Notes under the pieces: model-generated
Told to the model about the DNA's origin: nothing
What the model saw: the letters and a program-made list of their open reading frames with translations, nothing else
Databases searched by the model: none
Part shown: one piece after another, positions 20,229-34,884 of the stretch
How positions within the stretch are numbered: the first letter of the stretch is position 1
Layout of the letters: each line of letters starts with the position of its first letter
Program-made: the position numbers and the translations under genes
From: Thermoplasmatales archaeon
Lineage (GTDB): Archaea > Thermoplasmatota > E2 > UBA202 > JdFR-43
DNA: 64,000 nucleotides
Direction of reading: 5' to 3'
Assembly (NCBI GenBank): GCA_014361195.1
Contig: JACIWA010000002.1
Coordinates: 130,310-194,309 of the forward strand

Positions 20229-22241
<2,013 letters not shown>

Positions 22242-34788: not shown

Positions 34789-34884
34789 GCAGGGGTAGCC
34801 AAGCGGATAAAGGCGCAAGGTTCAGGGCCTTGTGGCGCAGGCCTTCGTGGGTTCGAAATGCAAACGAAAATCCCACCCCCTGCA
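34789..34884 (+). tRNA. tRNA-Leu (CAG) with a probable 13-nt T-loop intron
   Basis: Class II tRNA. Acceptor stem GCAGGGG/CCCCTGC, D arm GCC...GGC, anticodon stem CAAGG/CCTTG with loop TTCAGGG (anticodon CAG), a long variable arm closed by GGC/GCC, T stem GTGGG/CCCAC, and discriminator A73. CCA is not encoded. The T loop is 20 nt instead of 7. Removing 34858-34870 leaves a perfect TTCGAAT loop, and the flanks can form a bulge-helix-bulge with TTCG paired to CGAA. The mature tRNA would be 83 nt. Confidence 0.9.
34858..34870 (+). other. Candidate tRNA intron, position 59/60
   Basis: ATGCAAACGAAAA, inside the T loop. The 5' exon end TTCG pairs with CGAA in the intron; 3-nt bulges AAA and AAT lie on opposite strands, and cutting each after its second base gives exactly this intron. 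The inner helix is replaced by a 6-nt loop, a relaxed bulge-helix-bulge. Confidence 0.75.

Follow-up and report, generated by a model that had tools for sequence, protein, structure and literature searches.

Reviews of archaeal tRNA genes list 59/60 among the non-canonical intron positions (PMC4090602). In Thermoproteales and other Crenarchaeota non-canonical introns, those at 59/60 among them, follow the same bulge-helix-bulge (BHB) rule as the introns described here. Similar introns in different tRNAs, which imply transposition, and tRNAs with more than one intron are also shared with these organisms. The crenarchaeal splicing endonuclease is of the (αβ)2 type, whereas our host belongs to the Thermoplasmatota and its enzyme appears to be of the α'2 type. 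For euryarchaea with α4 or α'2 enzymes a review describes introns only at the canonical position (PMC4090602). More generally, reviews confine such homodimeric enzymes to canonical-position introns (PMC4090602; PMC4033280) and describe intron diversity as having co-evolved with enzymes of the CSL/ASL type (PMC4033280; PMC4090602; PMC6379350). Enzyme class and BHB geometry are the same in the canonical 37/38 introns of Euryarchaeota and in the introns reported here, but the position is now 59/60. Many introns at non-canonical positions in an uncultured lineage have also been found in the Asgard archaea Atabeyarchaeia and Freyarchaeia, in which 92-95% of the tRNA genes have introns and over half have several (PMC11291895); in the genome studied here about one fifth of the tRNA genes have an intron at a single non-canonical site. 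The openly accessible literature, GtRNAdb aside, yielded no prior report directly on T-loop introns in Thermoplasmatota, and the training set of tRNAscan-SE 2.0 included some euryarchaeal non-canonical introns.

The tRNA-Leu(CAG) gene and its 13-nt insert

The window, i.e. the whole 64,000-nt stretch of DNA that was analyzed (G000:C2:130310-194309), comes from a draft metagenome-type assembly of 1.25 Mb in 39 contigs with a completeness of 96% and a contamination of 0.5%. By RpoB the nearest named relatives in the phylum Thermoplasmatota are AUK114 (Thermoplasmata archaeon) and JdFR-43 (Thermoplasmatales archaeon) at 85%, followed by AUK162 at 84%. The window also contains a 667-aa open reading frame (20238-22241, + strand) that was recognized by eye as resembling a bacterial-type NAD-dependent DNA ligase (LigA), a protein that is unusual in archaea.

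Direct reading of window positions 34789-34884 (+ strand, as for all features below) revealed an intact tRNA-Leu(CAG) gene in which all stems are kept and the T loop has 20 nt (TTCGAAATGCAAACGAAAAT). The 7-bp acceptor stem is formed by 34789-34795 and 34877-34883 with all seven pairs intact, the discriminator base is A 34884, and the 3' CCA is not encoded. All five anticodon-stem pairs are present, the anticodon loop is TTCAGGG, the variable arm is long and of the Leu type, and the T stem is GTGGG/CCCAC. The intact stems and the anticodon loop confirm the identity that an earlier note on this DNA had assigned to the gene. ARAGORN, with and without its intron option, gave no match to this tRNA in the window, and it was also missed by Rfam at the gathering cut-off. 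In a whole-genome search the Rfam tRNA model did find it, at 44.1 bits. The assembly yielded no second tRNA-Leu(CAG) gene, a point that the earlier note had singled out for checking.

Removal of 34858-34870 restores a TTCGAAT T loop and leaves the 7-bp acceptor stem and all arms unbroken. The same loop can be obtained by three excision registers, of which only this one places both cuts after the second base of a bulge (AA^A and AA^T), flanking a 4-bp TTCG/CGAA helix. The boundaries, the 13-nt length and the 59/60 position given in the earlier note thus stand. In this register the 69-nt 5' exon (positions 1-59) spans 34789-34857 and the 14-nt 3' exon (positions 60-73) spans 34871-34884, and the intron between them is ATGCAAACGAAAA, which is identical to that of tRNA-Ala(CGC) of the same genome. 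The exon strand of the central helix, TTCG at tRNA positions 54-57, occupies 34852-34855 and pairs with the intron strand CGAA at 34865-34868. The 5' bulge (34856-34858) has its predicted cut at 34857/34858 and the 3' bulge (34869-34871) at 34870/34871. The BHB, already proposed in the earlier note, is the minimum-free-energy fold of the T arm, where it accounts for 80% of the ensemble with a z-score of −2.0. At this locus alone, a 4-bp helix in the exact register would arise in some 2-3% of random inserts, which makes the motif on its own only mildly improbable. It is the shared register of six other tRNAs, found without a BHB model, that makes the case compelling.

The inner helix, which the earlier note considered lacking, is not wholly absent, as a U-A pair closing a GCAA tetraloop can be drawn at 34859-34864, but it comprises at most that one pair. 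The strict hBHBh' form includes an inner helix; the Asp, Lys and His introns of the same genome have abutting inner helices of 3-9 bp.

With a draft genome in 39 contigs, the insert might in principle be an error of assembly or binning, or contamination from a Thermoproteota genome. The completeness and contamination values and the location of the tRNA inside a 203-kb contig speak against such an origin. Furthermore, the Leu(CAG) intron recurs in a sister genome (G001), where its single A to G change retains a U-G pair, and 21 independent assemblies of the order agree. We therefore regard an artefact as extremely improbable.

Distribution and covariation of T-loop introns in Thermoplasmatota

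The six other tRNAs emerged from the whole-genome Rfam search as matches that end at the T loop. Reading these matches by hand revealed 59/60 inserts in the same register in Lys(TTT), His(GTG), Ala(CGC), Arg(CCT), Asp(GTC) and Pro(CGG). A covariance model of the T arm with the BHB (R1) recovered the known introns and added Ala(GGC), after which the E-values jumped from 5.5e-5 to 3. The source genome thus has eight T-loop introns at 59/60, all eight sharing the 5' cut register, and for none of the eight anticodons was a second gene found in the assembly. Histidine and aspartate have no acceptor tRNA other than His(GTG) and Asp(GTC). Introns in the anticodon loop also occur in this genome, in the Met, Trp and Tyr tRNAs.

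When 59 genomes were searched with R1, all those from the two families f1 and f2 of the order yielded matches. With an enlarged version of this model (R2) all 21 genomes of these two families were positive, whereas T-loop introns were detected neither in 58 genomes of the same class outside the order nor in the single f3 genome, which is 71% complete. The intron is therefore not an isolated case. Two R1 matches were dismissed: L073 (genome G050) has an unconvincing tRNA body, and L074 is a duplicate 3' half, not the intron of an intact tRNA. By reading each match we verified 105 introns in the order, each in a gene with a 7-bp acceptor stem and with up to 13 tRNA genes affected per genome; the survey was aimed at the 59/60 site. 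Among the first 99, lengths range from 13 to 50 nt (long introns may be cut off by the search), the 3' bulge is AAT in 96, and excision always gives a TTCRAAT loop, except for one TTCAAAC. Several of the genes have an anticodon-loop intron as well.

These introns are not confined to the order. A coarse scan of 392 Thermoplasmatota genomes gave at least 13 positive genomes outside the class, which is a lower bound since 17 candidates were scored per genome. Of the genes from outside the class, 25 were read out, seven of them from G298 and five from G094, and their acceptor stems are intact. Those of G298 (L265-L271) have minimal T-loop introns of 13-14 nt and mostly an anticodon-loop intron too. 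In G094 (L264, L283, L284, L285, L286) near-identical introns of 36-42 nt occupy Arg, Asp, Ala, Glu and Leu tRNAs, a pattern that points to recent proliferation. In JdFR-43 and many genomes of the Methanomassiliicoccales type, a T-loop intron interrupts the tRNA-Lys(TTT) gene that lies immediately upstream of the RNA polymerase genes. In the Methanomassiliicoccales-type genomes this gene often bears a similar insert in the D loop as well, and sometimes one more in the anticodon loop. All three occur together at L112:7438-7636, L098:9502-9676, L113 near 2260 and L104 near 9630, so that one euryarchaeal tRNA may have up to three putative introns. The same tRNA-Lys is uninterrupted in AUK162, S4B1_HD70, SG8-52-3 and CSMAG_1140. 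The rarity of non-canonical introns in the euryarchaeal branch, as expressed in the earlier note, agrees with the literature, but T-loop introns recur through the Thermoplasmatota.

The BHB pairing is strongly backed by covariation. The central helix has its full 4 bp in 91 of the 99 introns. In 88 of 99 introns position 57 and its intron partner form a Watson-Crick pair, compared to a mean of 46.7 and a maximum of 67 in 20,000 shuffles, a test that is inflated by kinship among the sequences. In alignment A2, which was gathered with a model already containing the helix and hence favors paired sequences, 99.3% of the pair counts are paired, with 114 double changes versus 28.5 after shuffling. 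The A2 pairing score is 0.417 versus 0.154 for shuffled sequences and collapses to 0.05-0.07 when slid by one column. The unbiased set consists of the six own-genome introns obtained from the truncated Rfam matches.

These data bear on whether the insert is kept in the mature RNA, either because enlarged T loops are tolerated or because the genes are decaying pseudogenes. CUG is among the rarer codons in 12 open reading frames of the window, at 5.8 per thousand, and wobble might in principle let tRNA-Leu(TAG) decode it. Yet no stem is broken, inserts of the same class occur in the sole-copy, essential His(GTG) and Asp(GTC) genes, and the BHB register is held by all introns with covariation. 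A retained insert would moreover be expected to break the contact between D and T loops. Retention is accordingly very unlikely.

Movement of introns between tRNA genes

For 73 introns the nearest neighbor has at least 75% identity, and in 57 of these 73 it resides in a different tRNA type (genes with two introns were assigned to a type by hand). Identical introns are shared by Gly(TCC) and Arg(CCT) of G011 (45 nt) and by Gly(TCC) and Gly(CCC) of G019 (48 nt), in addition to the Leu(CAG)/Ala(CGC) pair of the source genome. Since related introns occur in different tRNAs, they have spread between genes. The G011 genes (L196/L197) also share a CCGGG/CCCGG T stem, while Arg(CCT) of relatives has GCGGG/CCCGC, which suggests that conversion affected the entire T arm along with the intron. 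The palindrome GCAACTTG..CAAGTTGC of one intron family was found at 11 sites, every one of them inside a T-loop intron; no copy outside such introns was found in the order genomes scanned, and these palindromes are thus not dispersed repeats.

G001 has a second copy of the 3' half of tRNA-Arg(CCT), including the whole intron. This 75-bp repeat lies at a distance of 22 kb from the intact gene and overlaps a tyrosine integrase gene (PF00589). A 3'-half repeat with an integrase is the typical footprint of an integrative element. The arrangement looks like an integrated element that used the intron-bearing tRNA as its attachment site, and by analogy with this one case integrative elements are a plausible vehicle of T-loop introns. 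For Caldiarchaeum, Sugahara et al. (2012) put forward integration and recombination as the route of intron gain (PMC3293823). This proposal and the G001 repeat also lend some color to the idea that the inserts are scars or attachment remnants of elements using tRNA 3' halves, and are only secondarily spliceable. The G001 repeat is a single case, however, and the exact BHB register and clean exon ends of all introns indicate that splicing is apparently under selection. We consider a scar origin highly improbable; it would account for intron movement and would not replace splicing. A possible but rather doubtful extension is that the T-loop introns of Thermoplasmatota are mobile cargo of integrative elements that attach at a tRNA 3' half, the attP carrying the intron and each integration exchanging the 3' half of the resident tRNA for one that bears an intron. 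If true, introns would collect at 59/60 and spread under a plain α'2 enzyme that has no broad-specificity loop.

The splicing endonuclease and the meaning of the intron set

The source genome encodes an RtcB ligase and one splicing endonuclease of 313 aa. The type of this endonuclease, which the earlier note had suggested establishing, follows from two tRNA_int_endo repeats (PF01974 twice) without a CSL/ASL insertion. The catalytic Y254, H261 and K292 in the C-terminal repeat are invariant. An AlphaFold model (pLDDT 89.8) best matched the enzymes of M. kandleri (5x89) and A. fulgidus (α'2), with a TM score of 0.79-0.80 for the latter versus only 0.62 for ARMAN-2, and the protein aligns to the A. 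fulgidus enzyme without the loop grafted into 3p1y (CSL graft). The two fused repeats, the catalytic Tyr/His/Lys and the similar fold are shared with A. fulgidus; the Ferroplasma and Thermoplasma α'2 enzymes are alike too, that of Ferroplasma as judged from its description (PMC8707768). The G000 and G001 enzymes (L226, L227) differ from those of other order members in missing some 30 N-terminal residues with a motif like IYNKGxFG.

No insertion of about 10 residues of the CSL/ASL type was found in 16 order members or in 14 class relatives without detected T-loop introns. The enzyme can thus be classified, by sequence and model, as an ordinary α'2 type without broad-specificity loops, and a special endonuclease loop behind the expansion is ruled out for the order members. 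Enzyme type does not explain the expansion either, because the same endonuclease architecture is found in the class relatives in which no T-loop introns were detected.

Homodimeric enzymes have been reported to cleave BHB and bulge-helix-loop-like motifs, the homodimeric enzyme of Ferroplasma, itself a member of the Thermoplasmatota, to cleave a minimal BHB, and archaeal endonucleases to recognize the motif regardless of the mature domain of the tRNA (PMC8707768). Cleavage of T-loop introns is therefore reasonable. With an inner helix of at most 1 bp, the Leu(CAG) motif would lie near the bulge-helix-loop end, which counts against splicing, as this motif is reported to be handled efficiently mainly by (αβ)2 and ε2 enzymes, although the A. 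fulgidus α'2 enzyme handles it at 37/38 of full-length pre-tRNA (PMC6379350).

On balance, we are highly confident that the 13 nt are a genuine protein-spliced BHB intron at 59/60, belonging to a lineage-specific set copied between tRNA genes. The T arm of the pre-tRNA would fold by pairing exon TTCG with intron CGAA, and the two 3-nt bulges would stack on the T stem. The α'2-type endonuclease would then cleave each bulge behind its second base, and the two exons would be joined by RtcB, restoring the TTCGAAT loop required by the D-loop/T-loop elbow. We infer cleavage, ligation and the mature tRNA-Leu(CAG) from the genomic data. Members of this order of Thermoplasmatota have accumulated BHB introns at one site in many tRNAs, with intron sequences being copied between genes.

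The Leu(CAG) intron looks functional and, as a BHB intron predicted to be spliced at a non-canonical position already on record, belongs to a known type. More remarkable is how such introns have accumulated across the lineage at a single non-canonical site in Thermoplasmatota with an α'2 enzyme. Genes of this sort escape ARAGORN and Rfam at their default cut-offs, so these archaea are probably described as having incomplete tRNA sets. Up to 13 genes per genome at one such site contradict the view that α'2 euryarchaea have canonical introns only, and with many 59/60 introns alongside a plain α'2 enzyme, the link between loop acquisition and intron spread fails as stated.
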